Origin: Sphaerolaimus hirsutus
Taxonomy: Eukaryota > Nematoda > Chromadorea > Monhysterida > Sphaerolaimidae
DNA: 64,000 bases
Assembly: GCA_964036195.1 (NCBI GenBank)
Contig: OZ038460.1
Span: 5,025,504-5,089,503, forward strand
Direction of reading: 5' to 3'
The position numbers were made by a program, and so were the translations under genes. The notes beneath the pieces were generated by a model, which had not been told where the DNA came from, did no database searches, and was given only the letters and a program-made list of their open reading frames with translations. Of the stretch, positions 8,955 to 46,500 are shown piece after piece. Every line of letters begins with the position of its first letter. The first letter of the stretch is position 1.

Positions 8955-11900
8955 CTACTCCAAAGCCTTCACACTGATCATGTAGGGGAAAGCTTGTCTG
9001 GTGGCCCACATCAAGCCGTCCATGTTTTTCGGCTCCGTGTGCATTCTGATGTCGAACTCGGACAACAGCTTGGCCAGAATGAGGAAAAGTTCCGCGCGCG
9101 CCAATGCTTCACCTGTGGACGGTAATTAGGTACATAACTCTTGTGGAAAATACTGAACTTGTAATCTATTGGGTACTGTTATGTTAACAGCTGCCAATTC
9201 CGTAAGTAGGTGACGAGAAAAGTCGTAAATGGCATGCCTAAATATTTACATCACTGGCAGGTCAAGTGACAAATATTTTTTCACTTTTTTAACTATTTTG
9301 TAGAAGCTTACGGACTGGTCGCTTGACTTGGCGCGTTAAATGACACCACTGTACGTATTTTCACTATCCCACTTGCAGAATTGGCACTACATCAAAATCC
9401 AGTTAGTAGAAGCCGGCTAGGCATAAAATCACAGTTTATTCAGGATATCTTGAACTATGAAAGCCGTAAAATTTGTAATTCCATACCTGGACAAGCCCTT
9501 TTGCCCAGCGCAAATGGTGTCACATTTTGCACATTGTTCTGCTCCTGGCCCGGCACTTTTTCCATCTCTGCATATTTGTCCTCAGACAGGAATTCCGCAG
9601 AGAGCTGCAAATTGAAAGTTTACTTTTAAATTAGATACACAAAGAATGATTTAAATGCCTACAATTGATTTCACATGTCAATTGAATTTTTGTTTGAAAG
9701 CGTGATACAAATGATTATTTTAATTTCATTAATTAAAAATATTCAATTACCGTAATCAAAGATGACCTCGGCGCATTGAAATTAAAAAAAATTCAAAGTG
9801 CGTGCAAACCCAACCCCCAAAAACAACCTCAAATCCACCAACATTTTCATCCAAACAATTAGCATTCTCATCAGCCAAAAATCGATCCGGCTTAAACACA
9901 TCCGGCTGTGGAAACAAGTCTCCGTCGCCCAAAACACTGGAAATCTGAGGAATGACCGCGGTGCCGGCGGGCAGGGAGTGCCCCTCGCCGATGGTGACCT
10001 GCTTGGTGACGCGGTGCTGCACGTTGATGGGCACGATGTTGCCCAGGCGCTGGATTTCGTGGATTGTAGCCACTGGGGGGAGGGGGGGTTGTGAATGTGT
10101 GTGGTGATATTTGTGTTTGAATATTTTTTTATGCTGTCATTATTATTGATGTTGATTAGATAACACATTTTTCCAAGTTCCATCGGCCACCCTATGGGAA
10201 ACTCCAAAATTTGAGTGTAACACTTTGGAATTACTTTTCTCCATTGTGCATTTTTAGTTAAATGCGAAAGATTTTTTTGAAAAATTTCTTCCATTCCACA
10301 ATCCCTCAAAGTACACTCAAAAAGTGACCAACCAAAGTAAGGCACATGATTCTTCAGGCTCATTTCAAGTTTCCTTCCATCATCCCGAGTCGCCTGGAGC
10401 AACTCTTCCCTGCAGCGCCGCTGGACATCTTTGTTCTGAGCCAGGTAAATCATAGCCCAAGTGACTGTTGTAGCAGTGGTTTCAATGCCTGCCAACATGA
10501 GTTCTGTCGCGGTGCACATCAAGTCTTCCAGGCTGTAAATTGTTGTTTTTTGGATTTGAAATGGTTTTTATTGAGTTGTATTTATGTGTGTGCTGTTTTT
10601 GATTACGCAGCTCAGGTGCCACACCCAGATACTGTAAAATGTCCTGCAACGTGTGAAAAGTTATGTAAAATTTCCTGTAATGCGGCAAACTCGTTTGCCA
10701 TTTACCAGTGTAAATATACTGTTGACACTTTGGATGACATTTTACAGGGTCTCACTCTGAAATCGTCATTGGCCAAGTCAATGGTAAAATTCCATTTTCC
10801 TGGTTAATCGCTCCCAAAGCATTTTAACTTCACTTTTTTAAACTTTCAACAAATTTATCAACTCACTGAAACGTCAAATTCTCTCCATTCTGATCCCATT
10901 CCGAATTCATCTGTTTCAAATATCGCTCGATGAAATTGTCCGACTGGTCGATTTCACCGTTGCGTTTTTCCTTGCTCATCGACCTGGTGATGTCGATTTC
11001 CTTTTCGATCAGCTCGTGCATTCCGTCGATGCACGCGGTCAGCGGCTTGTGGTGGAAGTAGCCGAAAAGTGGGATTTTTGTGATCCAGGGGCATGTTTCC
11101 CTGCGGTTTTGGAGGGAGAAAATGGATGTTTGAATGGTCGAAGTGAAGACAAATTCATTTTACAACATAAAGATACCGGCAGAATCAATTTCCTACATTT
11201 CAAAAGACAAGACACATTTCTAGAATAGAGAAAAGTTACAAACTGCGCGTAAAAAGTTCATCACACGGAAAATTGACATTCAATTTGAAGTTGAATTTGA
11301 AATTTCAATTGATATACTCCGTAAGCTTTTTAAAACTTATTTTTCCATTTACATTCTCAACGCTTATCCTATCACTTGAACAAATGCCAAACCAGTCCCC
11401 AGACCAACCAAAGTCTAGTGGGCCAATCAAAGCACATGCTGTTATATTGATCTATGTACTTTTTCAACTGCAGCATGGTTTCATTGTCGATAAGTCGACC
11501 AAAAGTCACCTCTGCGATTATGTTGGCAACGGTGACTTTAATTTGCTCGCACGGGTCGATCGGTTCGCCAGACTCGCTGTGGGCCTGCGCGGGTTGATAA
11601 ATATAGTGCGGTTCAGGGAGCACTCCCGGACCCTGTAAAATTCCCTGTAAAATGTCAAATGTCATGCAATGTGTCAAAAGTCATGTAAAATGCCCTGGAA
11701 AATGGCAACCGAGTTTGACCTTTTATAGAACTTTTCACATGACTTGACACTTTGTACGAAATTTTCACGTTTTTTAGGGTTTTTTACCGGATCAGGGAGT
11801 GTGGAATCAAGGGTCACCCATTCAATGGTTAGGAAAAAACATGTAAGACACCCGACGCGCGAGTAACAGCGTAAAATGTTGTTTTTTTTATTCTTAGCAC

Positions 11901-28500: not shown

Positions 28501-31500
28501 GCATGGCCACATTGGTCCATTATTGGCCTCAATCTGATTATTATAGAGACACCTGGTGCCAATCCCAGACCCTGTAAAATGCTGTGTAAAATGTCAGATG
28601 TCATGCAAAGTGTCAAAAGTTATGGAAAATGCCCTGCAAAATGGCAACCGAGTTGCCATTTTGCAGGGCATTTTCCATGACTTTTGACACTTTGCATGAC
28701 ATTTGACATTTCACAGGGCATTTTACAGGGTCTGGGACTGCCCCCTGATGAAACTAACAAGTTGTATTCACGGACATTCTCCGGCGCTGCTGTTCAATGC
28801 GGGTGATTTCGCGCCGCAGCGGTGGCAACGTGAAGCTATTCTTGTTTACCGTAAAAACGCGCTGCAACGTGCTAGTTTCCTGCGACGGGAGTATCAGCTT
28901 GAGAGTGAAAACATATGGTTGAATTGATGGATTTCCGTGGGTGGACGAGTGATGTGAAAAGTGTAAGGGATAAGTGAAGGTATAAGTGCCAAGTCAGCCA
29001 AGGTATTAGACAAGTAAATTTTCCACTATTCAGTCACATGACAAGTATTTTCACGGTCAAATTTACATGTCAGCTGTAGGGTAAGTTCACTCATCATAGA
29101 ACACTTTTCTTGTTACTTGTGCACTTACACGGAATTATAAGGCACAAGATCTGGGAAATAAACAATAAAAAAAGAAAAATCAACAGACATTATCCTGTGT
29201 TGCGGTGGTGGTATTTGTGGCATCCAGTGGCGCAGCAGTGGTACCCAATTTGTCCGATTTACTGACTTTGTGTGGCGATCTTGGCTTGGTAGTGGTTCTT
29301 CCCTGAGCTGTGTGTCGTGTTTGTTCCTCGGTTGATGGTGCGCTTTCAGTTGTGCTCAACCTTTCTCCACTGGTGGGCACTTTTCCTGTAGTTGTTCTCA
29401 CTTCTCCAGCAGTGGATGTCAATTTTTCATCAGTGGGTGTAAATTCGTCATCAGTGGATGTCAATTTTTCATCAGTGGGTGTAAATTCGTCATCAGTGGG
29501 TGTCAATTCTTCATCAGTGGGTGTCAATTCTTCATCAGTGGGTATCAATTTTTCATCTGTGGGTGTCAATCCTACATTTGTGAGTGTCAATTTTTCATCT
29601 GTGGGTGTCAATCCTTCATCAGTCGGTGTCAATCCTTCATCAGTGGGTGTCAATTTTTCATCTGTGGGTGTCAATCCTTCATCAGTGGGTGTCAATCCTT
29701 CATCAGTGGGTGTCAATTCTTCATCTGTGGGTGTCAATCCTCCATCAGTGGGTGTCAATCCTTCATCTGTGGGTGTCAATTCTTCATCCGTAGGTGTCAA
29801 TCCCCCATCAGTGGGCGTCAATTTTTCATCAGTGGCTGTCAATTTTCCATCAGTGGTTGTCACTCTTCCACTGCGTGTTGTCAATTTTCCATCAGTGGTT
29901 GTCACTCTTCCACTGCGTGTTGTCAATTTTCCATCAGTGGTTGTCACTCTTCCACTGGGTGTTGTCACTCTTCTAGCAGTGGTCTCTGCCACCCTTCTAT
30001 CTGTTGTGCTTGGCGCGCGCGTACTCGTGACCACGTTTGGTTGCGTTCTCGGCACAGCTCTTGTGGATGCAGATCCCTCAGTTGTCGCCGTCGCGGCTGG
30101 AGTTTTTGTCGCGCAACTTTGCAGGGAGTTGATGAAACTGGATATGTCGCGGACAGCTTTGCTGTGTTGGTGCGACTCGTACACACGGTCTCTGACGCCT
30201 GTGAAACGTGAAAATCGATTGGGATTGATCAATGAACATCGCGAACAAATTGAGGTCAACCGCACCTTGTAAAGTAACAAGTTGACAAACTTCTCAACAT
30301 CGTATTTCATCGAAATACCTAAAGTTTTTGTTGCAAATTTGAATGCAACTTTTGAGGGGGGGGTAATCGAGGGAGGGGGTATTTAGAGGTAATATGGTAC
30401 TTTTCAAGATATCACTGGTGACTTTTTCTCACGATCATTTTCGCACCCGACAGAACGGCAATCTTCACCCAAATCCACAAAACAACCACACCACCCACCA
30501 ACCAACCAGCATACAACACCAACTCGGGCATATAACTGTGCGCATTGGGCGACACCACGAAAGGCACCACATCCTCAGTACCATTCAATCGATTGGCCAC
30601 GCCCAAAGTGATCGGCCAGGGGGGCACTCCCAGACCCTGTAAAAAAGCCCTGTAAAAAGTAAAATGTCATGCAAAGTGTCAAAAGTCATCGAAAATGCCC
30701 TGCAAAATGGCAAACGTACGTTTGCCATTTTGCAGGGCATTTTCCATGACTTTTGACACTTTGCGTGACATTTGACATTTTACAGGGCTTTTTACAGGGT
30801 CTGGGACTGGCACCAGGGGTCTTGACTCTGCCCGTCGGATATGTGCACGAGCACGTCGGTGTGCACGCGCGGCAGCTGCACGGCGAGTTCGCGCAGTGCG
30901 GCTGACACGGCGTCGGCGGCACCGGTCGCCCCGCCCGTGTGGGAGACGGATAGGATGGCGGCGAGGAACTGATTGGGGGGGGGGGGTTGCGGCCGCGTAT
31001 TAGTTGACCAGTTGAAAAATCCAGAAAAATGACAAATTTAACATTATTTGTCCACAGGATTTCACTGAACTTGACAGTGACTGCCTTAGCATTCTGTTCC
31101 CAGTTGTCATTTCGAATATTTACAAATGAAAAACCTACTACTGGCACCGAATTTGACTTAAATACATTCAAAAATAAATCTAACCTGTTCCTTGTTCAAT
31201 TCATCATCAAACGTAACATCAGTGGCCACATAATCAGCAAAAGTAACCAGTGCATACTTCATTTTCCCATCATCATTGTCAACAGACTCGACCAATTTCA
31301 CGGCAAACTTCTTTGCCTTGTCAAATTCCTGTTCAATTGAACCAGAAGTGTCCAAAATGACCACCATTTTGACCCCATTCACACATTTGCCAGCATCTGC
31401 AGGGTCCCCTGGGCCCTTTGATGCTGCCACAACGAGTGGCAGCTGAGTGGCTGCAGTTTTCGTTTGGCTGAGCGGCACTGAGTGAGTGGCTGTCTTTTTG

Positions 31501-34500
31501 GGATCCACTGTTGTTGTGACCACTTTGTGTGGTTTTTGAGCCTTTGGCAAGCGGTCCAGTCCTGGAAAGTGAGGTGATTGAATTAGTTTTGGCTTTTGAA
31601 TGGAGTATTGTGTTTGGGAAATTGCTAAACAGGGGTAAATGCTTATTTAGTTAAAGTGTCAGTTCAGGAAAATATGGTCAGGTTTGATTTGACAAGTTGA
31701 GGTATTAAGTTACAATTTGAAGAAAAATATAAATATTAATAGCACACAAACAGCACTACACTTTTCAACAGCCTAAGACACACTACATGCGTTAAGTATT
31801 GACTACAACATATTCATTTGTAACCAGAATAATAATGTGATAAGCCCAGATCAATTTTTGGAATAATTTTTTCAATTACCGCGATACTTCACTGGTGCGA
31901 AAATGAATCCCTTGAAAAAATCCCCACTAAAGTTATCAGGAAAACGACGGTGCGGATGCGTAAATTTTGACAGAAAAAGTCTATTGTGGGCCTCACATAT
32001 TTACTTTGCAGTTACACATATTTACATAGATATGCTTATGCACAGGGAGTGAGCAGCGTTATTTGTGACAGAAATGGGTAGTCGGAAGTGCGCCATGGGG
32101 CCACCCCCAGACCCTGTAAAATGCCCTGTAAAATGTCAAACTTTTTTGCAGGATGCTTGACTTTTCTCATGACATTTTGAATGACTTTTAACACTTTGAA
32201 ATACATTTTACATGTTACGGAGCATTCTACAGGGTCTAGAAATGACCCTGAAAACGGATCCAATTCCGTTGCCAAGTCCAGTGTCAAGCTGAAAGTGACA
32301 CGATTACTCGGATTTTATTGTGACTCTGACGTTTTCTTGTCACTTGACTTGGTCGCGGAATTTACACATGAAGGTATTCACAGATAGGTTATAAAACTAG
32401 AAAATAAGAAAAAAAGGAACTCTACAAAGTAAAATCTACATACAAAACACACTAAATTCGAAACTACCTTTCGAATATGCAAACTTTATAGTTTCCCAGC
32501 GTCATCTGAACAACTCTATGAAATATTTATTGATAATGAGCACTGCGGGGGCAAAATATTCGAAAAAATATATTTTAAAACACGAAAATCAAAATACCCA
32601 AACACGAGAGATTTCATTTCATCATAGTCTTACAGATGCACACTTCCAGTTGAAAACATATATGTACTGTATTTTACCGTTTGGTATCTGTGTAAATATT
32701 TACCATAATCCTAGAATAAGTCACCCGGAAAATTATTTTTTGATCGGATTTTTTGACTGGTGAGTGATTCAATAATGGGGATTATTCAAGGGGTCTTATT
32801 CGAGGATCTACGTATTTATTTACCTCGGTGATAGTATTCAAATACCCCGACACGTTTAATCGGGCAACCCGGTTCATGTTAATTTGAATACATTCTGAAA
32901 TTCTGCCCAGCACGAAAAACGTGTCGGGATGAATGAATTTTAAGTGACATGTAAAATACTACAGTGTCCCATTCTTTGGCCAGAATAGCTCATTTCAAGT
33001 GCCGAAAATACTTTTGTAACTTTTGTCAGTTTGGGGGCAGGAATATCGATAATTATCATCGAACTGTGATTTTTCACGCAAGAGGCAAGTGACAGCGGCA
33101 GTGGCTACAAATATAATATTTGTTTAAAATGCCTATGAAATGCGAGAAAGCTTCTACTCCCTATACAGATGGAGGAAAATTATCTGTAGGAGTGCGGAGT
33201 GGTTATCATCACAAAATACGCCTAAATAAGTGACCTACCTATGATACGGTGTGTTGAATACTTGAAGATGTTGAATACTTGTAGATCTTAAAAAAATAAT
33301 AATAAATGATAATATTTAAAAATGTGATCGTACTTTGTACCGCTTCGTATGAGACTGTTCTCGGAACATGCTGAAGTAAATATTAACAGTACTCCTAAAT
33401 CTGTATAGGTACACTGAATCACATGCAAACATGAAAATTGAACAGGGGGCACTCCCAGACGCTGTAAAAAGCCCTGTAAAATGGCAAATGTCATCCAAAG
33501 TGGCAAAAGTCATTGAAAATGCACTGCAAAATGGCAACTCGGTTGCAATTTTGCCGGGCTTTTCCATGACTTTTAGCACTTTGCATGACATCTGACAGTT
33601 TACAGGGCTTTTTACATGGTCTGGGATTGGCACCAGTAATACACGTGCAAACGTGAAAGTGAATGCGCTGCAGCGCGTTCAATATTGAATTTCAGGGCTT
33701 TTATTTGACTTTTAAAGGAGAAACAAAAAGAAAATCACCCTTTCTAAATGAATAGCTTTTTAACAACACGCTAAAGCGCATCCACACACAGGGTGTGAAC
33801 ATTTACCGTAACGCAGCGGTAATCTACCGAAATTTAACACCGTACCGTTTACGCACCGGTACTGGAAATTCGTAACACTAACCCACTATCCACATGAATA
33901 CACCAATCCAAAAAATACAAATTGCATGGTAAATATTAAATGGTAAATAATTTACATATTTAAATATAAATACGCGCGAACGTAAAGCGAGCCAATGCGA
34001 ATAAATCACCTAATGCCTAATCCTCCTTTTCTTACCTTTGCATTCCCCTTGAAGATCATTATTAGCCACCAAATGGTCCAAGAACTGGTTGACTCTGAAC
34101 CCTGCAAAGACCCTGTCCTTGGAGCCGGCGTACAGCTCCAATTCGGGCAGGTAGTACGACTGGGACAGGGTGACGGCGTAGGTGCGCGCGTTGGACGCGC
34201 GTAGAGCGGCGGCGGTTGCCCGGGTTAAGGGCCAGTTGTCCTGGGTGGGAGGGATGGGGATTTTTTGGTGGTGGGTGTTTTTTGGAGGGATTTCGGGGTT
34301 TATTTGTTTGTATTTAATGTGTTGCTGTAGAAAATGTGAGAGTGAACACTATTTACGTTATCTTTAATTCGTAATGCCAGTGTTGATAATTCGCACTATG
34401 TGACTATCCTACAAAACGCCTGAGGCCAGTACCGCACCAAAACAAAAATTCCAGGGAAATTTTAAATGATCAATATGCGAAATATATTTGTCTGATTTTA

Positions 34501-40500: not shown

Positions 40501-43500
40501 TGTTTTTTCTGGCCCCCCTGTCTGGTCTACTGAAACGAATCTCGAACCCTGCGAATGGCAAATTACAGAAAAAATCCCAAATACTCGGTTAAATGTTTTC
40601 AGGGAATTTGAAAAATAATCCGTTTAAATTTGTGTGTTGTAAATAGATTCCAAAATTATGTCAACTGTCCATTCCAAAAATGTTCTACAACTGTGTACAC
40701 TGCAGAGGTGATTTTGACAAACTCGTCCAAAATTTGCCGTTTGACAGCCCACAGCCCCTTTGTATTATCAATCAATAGAACACTGCGAAAAAAATTAGCC
40801 AGTACTTAAGTATTTAAAACACAAACCAACCGCATCAACATATTCCTGCTTGCCTCTGCCCTTCTTGAATGGCACAACCACAGTGCCGCGCGTGGTAAAC
40901 TTGACAATAGAGCCAGTGATTCTGGAGGCAAAGGCACCTGCAGCCGGGTGGTATACCACGTCGGCAACGAAGTCACGCTCCTGTCGGACAGTGGAAATTT
41001 TTTAGATTTTTTTGTTGGAAAAGTCTATCAAATACATAGTGCAGACAATGCCAAAAGTTTTTTTCCAGCACATTATTGTTTTGACTGTGGAGTTTTCAAG
41101 GGGTGTTAATTTTTAAAGGTAGGTCTGCGTGAGACTGTGTCACCATACTCTGAGTGGATATTTTATCTACCATGGCCTGGGGGCAGTCCCAGACCCATCA
41201 AAGTGTAAATTAGAGCGTCAAATGTCATGTAAAATGTCAATCAAAACAAAAAAGCAGATTTTATTACTGAACTTTGCATGAAAATTAACACTTTACTTTA
41301 CTTTACTTTACATTACATTTATCATGACAATTGACACTTCGCATGACATTTTACATGACATTTGACACTTTACTCCACACTCCACACCCAGGGTCTGGGA
41401 CTACCCCCAGAGCACTTTTCAAGGCTACACCATAAAAACACCCCAAAAGTCAAAACCCAACCATACATCATTGAACTCCTCCTCCACACTTCCACTAGCA
41501 TCAATGATCAACATGGCGTCCAGCTCGCACTCGTTCTCGTCGGGCAGCGGCTTGGGCTCGACCCTGGTGCACCAGTCGTCGTTGACCAACGCCACCACGT
41601 CGTTGGCGAAGTCGTCCAAGCGGCGGTCGGTGTAGACGCGTCTGGGTGGGGGGAGGGGTGGATTGAAGGGTTGTCTAGGGGGCAGTCCCAGACCCTGTAG
41701 AGTGCCCTGTAAAATGTCACGTGAAATGCAATGCAAAATGGCAACCGAGTTACCATTTTGCAGGGCATTTTACGTGACTTTTGACACTTTGACTGACATG
41801 TGACTTTTTTCAGTGCATTTTACAGGGTCTGGGATTTGCACCAGGACAGTATGGATTGCTGTATGAATGGCGGAAGGAAACGGTCGCCTTACCACAATAC
41901 CTTATGAAATTTTTTGGCGAAATAATCAACCGCCCTCGAATCAACCCCCAATACTATTGGCGCAAAATTATCCATTGCACTACTTCCAACAACACATTAC
42001 CATAAACCAACAAGTAAAAACAAAAATTTATAACCTCTCAGTTCCCGAGATGGCCGACAGTTCAGGCAAATAGTAGTCGCTGCTGAAAGTCACTGAAAAA
42101 ACTTCGGCGCCGGTTTCTTGCCGCATCGCTTTGGCATCCTCCCGGATCACGGACAGAAAATCTTGTGAATTTCCATCGGACACGTGGATTATTATCAAAC
42201 GGGCTTCCTTGCGTCTGTTGCGGCGGATCTGAAATTTGGGACGGAAAATCGGATGAGAATTGTGATGAGAATGAGATATTTATTTGCAACTGATTGATGG
42301 AACAACGCAGGTTCCGCGGAGGTATAATAAATGTAAAAAAGCATGTTTTTGCAATACCTTAATGGAAAATGTGAAAAATTTGGACCCTTGATGCAATTTG
42401 TGTTCGGGCCTATACCGTATTTCCTCGAAATACCCCCCGGGGGGTGATTGTTTCATAGTGGTCCCGAGAGGGGGGGGGGGGTTAAACGAGGGGGGGGTGT
42501 TTCGAGGGGGGGGGTTATTATTTCACAAGAAAATTTTTGAAGTACGAAATTGTCGTCTGAAACGTACGCAGACGTCGAAAAATGCAACAAAAACTGCCGT
42601 TTATAAGGTTCTGTAGACTAATATTAGTATGTAGATGGTATGTACACTGTTCTAACGTGACACCGACATTGTTTTAACGTGTGTTCTGCAGTACACAGAA
42701 CACAAACTACAGTTATTGTCATGTACGTTCCCTTTACACTCAATTTGGGGGGGGGTATTTCGAGGGGGGGTGATTGTTTCATAGTGGTATCGAGAGGGGG
42801 GGGTCAAACGAGGGGGGGGGTATTTCGAGGGGGAGGGGTATTTCGAGGAAATACGGTATATGTATTTAGGTACATTGTTTCCTCATTTTCACTTTCCACT
42901 CGGCCGACTTCTCAGAGTCTCGTATCTAAAAATATTCGTCGGAGAAAATAAATTTCGATCCAAATATACACCACAAACTTTGAATAAAAAATATCAAATA
43001 CCGTGTTTTCTAGGAATACCCCCAAGGGCCATGGGGTAATATTTTCCGTGTGTAAATTTTTAGGCGGGGGGTAATATTTGGGAGGGGGTAATATTTGGGA
43101 GGGGGTAATATTTGGGAGGGTGTATTTCAACACAGTAAATCAAACCAAACCCAACCTCCTCCAAAGCAACCCTCAAAGCGGCGGGTGCGCTGGTCGCCCC
43201 GCCGCTGTGTTCAATGCCAGTGATCAAGTCCAACATCTCCTGCTTGGTGGTCTTGCCGAAGCCCTTCACCAAGCTCGCGTCGCCTGCGAAACGCACCACT
43301 GCGCCGCGTACGCGACCCGAACTGAGTGTGGGTGAGTTTTGATGGGGTTGTTTTTTGTTGTTTTTGATTTTTTTGAGTTTTGAGCCAAATATGAGACAGT
43401 GCTAGGTATCTACACTGTATTTTTGCACCCAGATTAAGGAACCGATATTATTGGGTGCAACAAGGTCATTTCTTAAACTCCTTAAGTTTCCCGGAAATTT

Positions 43501-46500
43501 TTTCGCCACGATTTCCACGCGCAGAATTAAATCGGTAGAGCTTTTTTGCAAATTCATCAACACCGACTGAAATATTAGTGTGCTGCATAAATAAAATACT
43601 TGCTGCTCACAAACAAAGTATTCTAGGTATTTCAGAGGTTCATTCTCCTTCCACGTTGACAACGCTTGGAATAATACCGTATTTGCTCGAATAATTCACC
43701 TTGTGAAATATTTTTGTCAGGCTATTCTGAAAGAATGTTCAAGGTGGAATTTTTCAAGGGGGGATAAAAATGCTGTCAAAATTTTCAAGCATGTTTCTAT
43801 CATATCAATTAATGGAATATGGTTAATTAGCAATTTAACATGCCATTTTTGTTCGAATTATACACAATAATTTTGGATATGCCTAAAGAGGGGAATTATT
43901 CGAAGGGGGAATTATTTTTTCCTAACTAGTCAAACAGTGGGGATTATTCAAGCAAGCACAGTATACCACAGCTCCCCATCCACAAAAACACGCCCCCAAA
44001 AACACACGCGAAACTCCTCTCATCCAAATACTGCACCGCATCCAGGGCAAATTTCTTCTCACTCTCGAAATCGTCGACAACACTGCCGCTTGTATCGACA
44101 ATGATCAACGCATCAAATGGGCATCTATCATCGATAATTGGGTCGTGCGTCACTGGGGGCGGAGTCGAGGGCAGGGGTTTGTCCTCGCATTTGACATTTT
44201 CGACTAGGGACAATATGTCGGTTCTGTGAGTGATGGGTGGGGTGTAAAATGTGATGGAATGGTGTCTTTTTGGGCTTTTTTGCTACATTTGTTTTGAGAA
44301 AATTTTATCCGCAACTGCGGCGGGCGGTGTCAAGTGCCCGCTGGGTATGAAAAAGAAATGCGTGTAGAGAGAAATACACAAGGATGTTTAAATACAATGC
44401 ATTTTATTTACATCTGAAATGTTTAATCATCACATCCCGAGCTAAAACTGGGTTCAAGGCAGTTCCTGGTGTTATGCGCATCAATATCGTGGTACACCTA
44501 AGGATCGGAAAAATATAACTTTCTGGAGTTCACCATTGTGCCACAACCAGTTCACCCAGAATTAATATTAAAAAATCAAATAGAAACAATTTAGGCATAC
44601 CTGAATTCGTCCAGTCTCTCCCACGTGTAGACACGTTTCTCCGACCCGGCATAAGTGCGCATCTCTGGCATGTAGAAATCTTGGCTGAACGTCACCGCGA
44701 ATACCTCCGCACCGGTATCATACAGCCTGCAGAACGTGTTGAGTTTTGTAAAAATATTTTGCCACTGGGTGGCAAATTGAATTAGAATGTGATCCCAGAT
44801 CATGTGAAATTCATGGTAAAATGTAAAATGCCATGTAAAGTGTCAAGTCATGTGCGTATTTAAGTGGGACTTATGTGCGTATTTAGGTATCATGTTCTAA
44901 TTTGGATCCATATCCCCTGAAACCAAAACAATTCCCGCACCTCTGTGCAGCCGCTTCCATAATATCAAAAGTATCGTCCCGATTCGAGTTGCCATCCGAC
45001 ACGTGAATAACGACCAGCTTATTTTTCGACCCCCTATTCCTGTAGCGCCTGATTTCATCGACTGCGACATCGACAGCTGTTGCCGCAGAAGTGCCACCGC
45101 CTTGGTGTTCGATCGAGTTCACCTGGTAAATTAGTAGGTAGGTAAATAAGTAGGTAAATTTGCAATATCACAACTGTGTCATGGATAAGAGTTTTTACAC
45201 ATGGCTATTTTACTGAGTAAGTATGATTGTGGTCCGCAAGACATCTTGAATGCTTTTATGCACCATCATTTTTTGCATAGCTATCTAAGTGGTTTGCAGA
45301 TGCAAATGTACCCCCATTTGAATGTGAATATATTTATGGCCTTTTGTCTCAACTATACTTCTCACAGTTCATCTCTCAAAAAAATGACATTAGGTAACTA
45401 ATATCATAAAAGTAGAGATGTCCACAGACACAGCACTTTCAACCACAAAAAATTTACTCAAAATCAGCCCACCTTATCCACATATTCCTGCTTAGGTCTT
45501 CCCTTCTCAAACGGCAGCACAACTTCCGCACTCTTTGTAAACTTCACAATGGCTCCAGTAATCCTAGAAGCGAACGCCGCAGCCGAAGGGTGATAAACAA
45601 CTTCGCTGATAAAGTCCCTCTCCTGGAGGAACTCGTCCTCGACGCTGCCCGACACGTCCTGGGGGGCAGTCCCGGACCCTGTAAAACGCCCTGAAAAAGG
45701 TAAAATGTCACGCAAAGTGTCAAAAGTCGCGTAAAATAACCTGCAAAATGGCAATTGAGTTGCCATTTCGCAGGGCATTTCACGCGACTTTTGACACTTT
45801 TCGTGACATTTGACATTTTACAGAGCATTCTACAGGGTCTGGGACTGGCACCAGGATGACCATGGCGTCGATGTTGCACTGGTCGATCTCGTCGGGGTCG
45901 GGTTTGGGGTCGATGCGCGAGCACCAGTCGCTGTTGATCACCGCGCCCACGTCTTGGGCGAACTCGGACAGGCGCGAGTCGGTGTAGACGCGTCTGCGAG
46001 GGTTTTTGATTGTTTGTTTTTTGCTGGGGGGTAGATTGAGGGTGTTTTTTTTGGGGGGGGGGGATTTGACATAGGTAATTCGGTTCTGATGAGTCGTGCG
46101 TGAATGAATGAGACAGCTCCAATGGATTTTACTGGGATTTCTCAAATTTTACGCTGCGTCGGTGAAAATTTGAGTACATTGAGTTTGAGTACATTTGCTT
46201 TTAGCGTAGGGAGGAGAATATTATAAAAATACCATATTTTGGTGAATGAAGTAAATTATAAATGATGCTCCAAATTATAAAAAAGTGAAGGGATGTATTG
46301 TGAAGAGAACATTTGTTTGACTCGTTTTCATTTTTTCACAGCTTATTTGTCCAACCTTATTTATCACAACTCATTTCTCACAACTCTCCCAGTTCCATCA
46401 TTTTCCCAACTGACCTATCAGTGCCAGCAATAGCCGACAATTCAGGCAGGTAATAATCTCCACTAAATGTCACTGAGAACACTTCAGCGCCAGTTTCTTG

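Follow-up and report, generated by a model that had tools for sequence, protein, structure and literature searches.

The window analysed here is a stretch of 64,000 nucleotides (C16:5025504-5089503) in a genome of 348.5 Mb in 762 contigs. The COX1 gene of this genome is on C762; the two most similar proteins share 89% and 79% identity with it, and the most similar ones from named species, insects, about 65-67%. Together with a nematode cuticle collagen domain (L021), a weak Srx GPCR match (L095) and an innexin (L026) in the flanks of the element described below, this suggests that the host is probably a nematode or some other ecdysozoan. Its minus strand carries a gene with a cluster of repeated modules, one of which is broken by 193 nt at 45659-45851. 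We take the interrupted module to be a VWA module and the broken segment to lie within its metal-site motif; the short pieces that were tried against Pfam gave no VWA match. Elsewhere in the window lie a cytochrome P450 exon (9782-10567, minus strand; Pfam p450) and a 400-residue open frame (29180-30382, minus strand) with many T-P-T-D-E-x-L repeats, which looks mucin-like by eye. This low-complexity frame matched no Pfam family and had no homologue in a protein search.

Read on the minus strand, the sequence around the interruption is ...GCCATGGTCATCCTG | GTGCCAGTCCCAG...GGGACTGCCCCCCAG | GACGTGTCGGGC... The upstream coding exon part (45852-45993, minus strand; RVYTDSRL...AMVIL), delimited by eye and with a putative acceptor of its own in ...CCCTCGCAG, ends in the codons GCC ATG GTC ATC CTG. 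The downstream coding exon (45473-45658, minus strand; DVSGSVEDEF...), likewise delimited by eye, opens with GAC GTG TCG GGC AGC and would end at the donor AAG|GTGGGC. Taking out exactly the 193 nt joins the frame as AMVILDVSGSV, and the protein then reads AMVILDVSGSVEDEF; the restored VILDVSGSV bears out the original prediction, in which this excision rebuilds ILDVSGSV in frame. That prediction also held that the other modules lack an intron at the motif, and nine other modules of the cluster do read straight through a D-x-[ST]-G-S motif. By comparison with these intron-free paralogous modules, the interruption would represent an intron gain, as had been claimed, and the interruption of the 45659 module is confirmed as a sequence observation.

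The 193 nt are made up of a 190-bp transposon body and one copy of a target-site duplication (TSD), all on the minus strand. The left TSD copy, CTG (45852-45854), remains exonic and encodes Leu, and the right copy, CAG (45659-45661), is the source of the AG of the putative 3' splice site. Between them, the left terminal repeat GTGCCAGTCCCAGACCCTG (45833-45851) holds the donor GT, and the right terminal repeat CAGGGTCCGGGACTGCCCCC (45662-45681) has a reverse complement that begins GGGGG. The predicted splice sites of this candidate spliceosomal intron are a GTGCCA donor and the acceptor CCCCCCAG. The claim that the repeats of a MITE provide both splice sites therefore stands for the donor, which is in the left repeat, but not for the acceptor, since the terminal AG lies outside the right repeat and belongs to the second TSD copy, the duplicated target being a 3-bp CWG. 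GTGCCA is a weak donor, which counts against the explanation that we favour below; a GTAAAA located 18 nt inside the element would, with the CAG acceptor, add six in-frame residues. The intron RNA, extended by 15 nt of exonic sequence at either end, is predicted to fold into one hairpin of -145.8 kcal/mol (z -18.6; 0 of 200 shuffles equally stable), with both splice sites near its base.

The same element recurs in the window and throughout the genome. Full-length or nearly full-length copies lie at 28556-28745 (plus strand; match coordinates) and 33445-33633 (minus strand), a diverged copy was found at 11616-11801 (minus strand), and the window also contains fragments of the family. A shortened copy at 41675-41841 (minus strand) ends 33 bp before a VWA exon, as judged by eye, and probably sits within a pre-existing intron. 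The VWA gene contains a further exonic copy at 30617-30813 (minus strand; near-full match 30619-30813), which has CTG on both sides. Genome-wide, 686 exact left ends follow a CAG and 587 follow a CTG, and reversed-pattern controls occur 0 times; the recurrence is therefore not due to chance. A DNA similarity search gave at least 80 matches, with 40 of 3527 first-look candidates scored and the two orientations of the palindrome counted separately, and 30 of these matches were made into loci, 28 of them distinct. In total, 92 of the 1273 exact left-end places and the 30 similarity loci were read in detail.

From 39 copies with bodies of 183-200 bp (mean identity 92.6%) we derived a consensus that is a near-perfect palindrome. 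Its ends are unlike only at the outermost bases (left GTGCCAGTCCC; right, as reverse complement, GGGGGCAGTCCC), and all three of its forward frames contain stops. The family is thus that of a MITE: short, built as an inverted repeat, flanked by a TSD, without coding capacity and present in many copies. The high identity among copies means that it has been active recently. In two places, opposite-strand exact left ends start 149 bp apart (C1:30745337/30745486 and C1:30980503/30980652). Such elements apparently begin with GTGCC whichever strand is read and would thus offer a donor in either orientation. Three near-identical copies (L077, L078 and L079) have their flanks and left end in common, with no right end found, and we read them as a larger repeat bearing a truncated element.

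We evaluated the coding context of the copies by removing the element with one TSD copy and translating across the junction, keeping at most 45 residues to the left and right of it. For each strand, the best frame with a composition score above 4 was submitted to Pfam, and a match was counted if it had E <= 0.01 and spanned the junction. Fragments came from loci L001-L030 (21 sense, 16 antisense), L031-L112 (47 sense, 31 antisense; the duplicate L097 dropped) and the hand-picked L114-L123 (5 sense, 6 antisense). Junction-spanning matches were found in 14 of 73 sense fragments, 11 of them above Pfam's own cut-off, versus 0 of 53 antisense fragments (Fisher p = 0.0003 for the 14 and 0.0025 for the 11). 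Those above the cut-off are Oscp1 (L039), Cation_ATPase_C (L055), Rcd1 (L112), Xan_ur_permease (L101), Cyclin_N (L100), attractin (L004), Col_cuticle_N (L021), IRK (L019), CAP (L022), Sugar_tr (L115) and AMP-binding (L118), the last with merely four residues left of the junction. E1_dh (L099), a weak Srx (L095) and Calpain_III (L116) span the junction below the cut-off, and matches that lie beside it were left out of the count (RsmB-F in L057, a ligand-binding domain in L011). Against solved structures, the best match runs gapless over the junction for CNOT9 (E 1.3e-40), cyclin-Y (9.8e-35), Kir2.2 (7.9e-22) and BCKDHA (1.9e-13). The innexin of L026 fits solely if the AG of a nearby TCCCAG serves. 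On this sample, the outcome that would have refuted the original prediction, no other copy falling at intron borders, did not appear, and the sense-only matches support the claim that the palindromic MITE is itself an intron.

Orientation was also evaluated by composition, using a position-specific first-order model trained on 24 exon pieces of the window (4080 nt). For 97-98 copies the middle setting gave 29 sense to 3 antisense, and the nine settings together gave 23:3, 30:7, 18:0, 29:3, 33:7, 22:3, 34:8, 38:11 and 28:6. Sense calls thus range from 18 to 38 and antisense calls from 0 to 11, the antisense always being the minority. CTG/CTG copies taken alone gave 4:1, 6:1, 3:0, 5:0, 7:1, 5:0, 7:1, 9:2 and 7:1 over the same settings. 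The three antisense calls at the middle setting were L053, L055 and L067. Of these, L053 stays antisense, whereas the Pfam domain of L055 is found in its sense frame, and the sense frame of L067 is zinc-finger-like by eye.

The TSD is a 3-bp CWG, copies being typically flanked by CAG/CAG or CTG/CTG. Among 69 distinct two-ended copies, taken from the first 80 loci, 50 of which had been picked for a left CAG, the pairs were CAG/CAG (49), CTG/CAG (4), CTG/CTG (3), CAG/CTG (2) and other (11). Mixed ends among 99 copies were 11 CTG/CAG against 2 CAG/CTG (p = 0.02), an excess consistent with gain of AG, although some such copies lie in apparently non-coding sequence. C precedes the TSD and G follows it, so that the target is near the palindrome CCWGG, and the sense orientation of the copies is therefore not due to the target. 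The training exons (4080 nt) hold 44 CWGG targets in sense and 32 in antisense, somewhat more in sense, and target-site asymmetry was rejected as the cause of the bias.

On these sequence features, we consider it very likely that the interruption at 45659-45851 is an introner, a non-autonomous palindromic MITE that formed an entire intron when it inserted into an exon, and the introner interpretation of the original prediction is supported. The family has the many copies with ends at exon borders that are expected of introners, and a source for its splice sites in the GT of its left end and, at CAG targets, the AG of the TSD. The element would insert at CWG and duplicate its target; the left end, which begins GT, would serve as the 5' splice site, and the second TSD copy, directly after the C-rich right end, as the 3' splice site. 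Most likely, then, the element supplies the donor and the TSD the acceptor. A CAG target would at once give CAG|GTGCC...CCCCCAG| and leave the protein unchanged, and a CTG target would give the same borders as GT...TG. The window copy, with CTG on its left and CAG on its right, is most readily explained as a CTG insertion whose right TSD copy would later have changed from T to A, gaining a canonical AG. The closeness of the splice sites at the base of the hairpin may help weak sites such as GTGCCA and TG. The sequence, the TSD, the number of copies, the restored frame, the bias in orientation and the predicted hairpin are direct results of the analysis, and splicing itself and the T-to-A history are what we infer here.

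The canonical GT-AG pair is present at the 45659 copy and at CAG/CAG copies but absent at exact CTG/CTG borders, where the TSD contains no AG. Exact excision of the second exonic copy at 30617-30813 restores HISDGQSQDP|WPITLGVANRLNGTEDVVPFVVSPNAHSYMPELVLYAG with borders GT...TG. Eight CTG/CTG loci have a sense match across the junction (L004, L019, L095, L099, L101, L112, L115 and L116), five of them above Pfam's cut-off; L095 is an Srx-like GPCR match and L116 a Calpain_III match, both below it, and E1_dh of L099 is also below the cut-off, yet its BCKDHA alignment is gapless. In a pattern-chosen sample, 8 of 25 CTG/CTG and 13 of 36 CAG/CAG places are coding-sense (p = 0.8), a class for which homologues listed by hand were used as well. 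Of 99 copies, 37 resisted classification, which weighs somewhat against the introner reading. By left flank, the coding-sense share is 14 of 50 for CAG and 12 of 42 for CTG. Coding copies diverge from the consensus by a mean of 0.092 (CAG/CAG) and 0.099 (CTG/CTG), compared with 0.128 and 0.108 for non-coding ones, and the coding CTG/CTG copies are no younger than the CAG/CAG ones. In a duplicated GPCR-like gene, L095 (C1:8164348) and L097 (C1:8180711) have a CTG/CTG insertion at the same site (169 and 197 bp, respectively), which is probably older than the gene duplication.

We enumerated GT-AG alternatives in 11 CTG/CTG copies. Donors could lie anywhere between 15 nt upstream of the element and 70 nt within it, and acceptors between 90 nt short of its end and 30 nt past it. 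L099 has no in-frame alternative within these limits, L095 and L101 have alternatives solely with at least 51 nt added, and those shown for L081 and L092 add at least 24 nt. Others are cheap: net 0 for L004 and -3 nt for the window copy at 30617, both using an exonic donor 11-13 nt upstream and the AG of a GGGAG close to the right end; either 0 or -6 nt for L088; -6 or -12 nt for L109; -9 or -15 nt for L112; and -3 nt for L019, with seven residues replaced. The internal AGs of the consensus, 19 and 31 nt from its end, were rejected as a rescue of CTG/CTG copies, for they shift the frame. Either the TG acceptors are spliced, or splicing goes to an AG in the vicinity, or the alleles concerned are defective, and the enumeration makes the GT-TG reading appear compelling for some copies only.

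That the CTG/CTG exonic copies are real GT...TG introns, their splice sites possibly brought together by the hairpin, we put at slightly below an even chance; it would extend the introner reading rather than oppose it. Such introns would account for the interruption of domains in sense orientation at eight loci and at 30617 in the window, and for the similar coding-sense shares and divergences of the CTG/CTG and CAG/CAG copies. They also fit L099, L095 and L101, with no alternative or only costly ones, and the predicted stability of the hairpin. TG 3' splice sites are known from human U2 introns, where they have been verified as alternative sites in 36 genes (PMC2374985); here, if used, TG would serve as acceptor for an entire class of transposon-made introns. 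The cheap GT-AG choices in several of the 11 copies count against this reading, as do the mixed ends, which favour AG and suggest that TG may be inferior. An unlikely reading is that exonic copies, chiefly CTG/CTG ones, represent insertions that recently disabled their genes, or heterozygous alleles picked up by the assembly. The high copy identity speaks for recent activity, but antisense insertions should then be equally common in exons, and none of the 53 antisense fragments has a domain, the composition model gives fewer antisense than sense calls at all nine settings, and coding copies show much the same divergence as the rest.

Removal directed by the hairpin and independent of the spliceosome, by SOS splicing or in the manner of euglenid nonconventional introns, is somewhat less probable still. 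SOS splicing occurs in C. elegans and human cells and depends on RTCB. The very strong inverted repeat with its ends meeting near the base, the seeming indifference to AG or TG and the occurrence of a TIR transposon in a probable nematode would all suit such a process. Excision would have to be base-exact, however, and the hairpin is identical both ways, so that orientation should not matter; yet coding copies are mostly sense, which points to recognition of the GT and argues against purely hairpin-directed removal. That an element merely landed in a pre-existing intron, or that the interruption is an assembly artefact, is highly improbable. The copy at 41675-41841 is probably a case of the former kind, but at 45659 and at 30617 the coding sequence borders the TSD exactly, left and right, on which grounds we reject insertion into an old intron for both, and at 45659 the nine intron-free paralogous modules speak against it as well.

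The CWG TSD, judged by its sequence, suggests an affiliation with NuwaI transposons. NuwaI is a group of PHIS (PIF/Harbinger-like) transposons defined by 5'-CWG-3' TSDs, with TIRs of 12-61 bp that usually begin GGG (PMC4482050). Reports of the group come solely from animals, and the 16 hosts reported include no nematode. An autonomous relative would be expected to have a DDE transposase, a Myb/SANT ORF and the same TIRs. The present family has the CWG TSD in common with NuwaI and a right end that begins GGGG, but its left end begins GTG, which creates the donor. The replacement of GGG by GTG may be the change that made the MITE an introner. In contrast to NuwaI, no autonomous element was found in the present genome, and introns go unmentioned in the sections of PMC4482050 considered. 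The genome has at least 163 DDE_Tnp_4 matches (150 of 306 candidates scored). With 132 exact left ends on C1, 1 of the 15 matches listed there lies within 6 kb of a left end (0.7 expected by chance), so that co-location among the listed matches does not exceed chance, and they gave no autonomous partner. Eight loci with a left end only had no convincing partner end within reach; at L033 a right end with 3 mismatches lies 1152 nt away. The DDE_Tnp_4 (PIF/Harbinger) family is itself very uniform and looks recently active: most of the matches listed span ~633 bp and share four TGA stops, which may mark an intron.

The fuller scenario would be a NuwaI-type MITE that invaded an animal genome, making GT-AG introns at CAG targets and working GT-TG introns at CTG targets, tolerated with the help of the hairpin and maturing by T-to-A change. 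We propose this only tentatively and regard it as rather less than an even bet. If true, the W of the target would amount to a natural, genome-wide series of A/T mutations at the 3' splice site. Because targets are CAG or CTG, the family is a built-in experiment, with similar introns that differ mainly in having A or T at the acceptor, and the requirement for AG and the help of the hairpin are thereby directly measurable. There are 1273 exact left ends genome-wide, and about a third of sampled copies are coding-sense. Intron gain can here be read at base resolution, with paralogous modules and antisense copies as internal controls.

Introners are the best current answer to the origin of new introns, and they are rare in animals. 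Huff, Zilberman and Roy reportedly described MITE-like introners with TIRs and a TSD in Aureococcus and Micromonas in 2016, in which the element is said to provide one splice site and the TSD the second. These differ from the present family in TSD length and in their algal hosts, and they are not known to mix AG and TG acceptors. A later and wider introner survey is said to have appeared in PNAS in 2025, and the present family could be described in it. Our literature search, with most subscription papers and bioRxiv preprints outside its scope, turned up no account of this family among the papers listed. A study of Caenorhabditis found no source sequences for the intron gains there (PMC9169325).

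The introner survey of Gozashti et al. 2022 (PMC9860276) found only two groups with introners among 835 animal and land-plant genomes, both of them animals. Its Chrysochromulina family brings a 5' splice site of its own and recruits the 3' one where it inserts (PMC9860276). The likeness to the present family is close: near-identical introns spread by DNA transposition, with the donor carried and the acceptor taken from the target, and in most families of that survey, too, mRNA length is unchanged. In contrast, the Chrysochromulina TSD is 4 bp, with no evidence of TIRs, whereas the present family has a 3-bp CWG TSD, a long palindrome and an animal host. Introner elements of Amoebophrya have non-canonical splice sites, borders with 3-5 nt direct repeats, and inverted repeats whose hairpin joins the exon boundaries (PMC7789003). 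Hairpin-forming inverted repeats, short direct repeats and, putatively, non-canonical sites are common to both systems. Amoebophrya, however, is a dinoflagellate with highly variable borders, and only 10% and 31% of its elements were assignable to putative MITE families (PMC7789003), whereas the putative introns described here belong to one family with a GT donor and an acceptor that varies between A and T.
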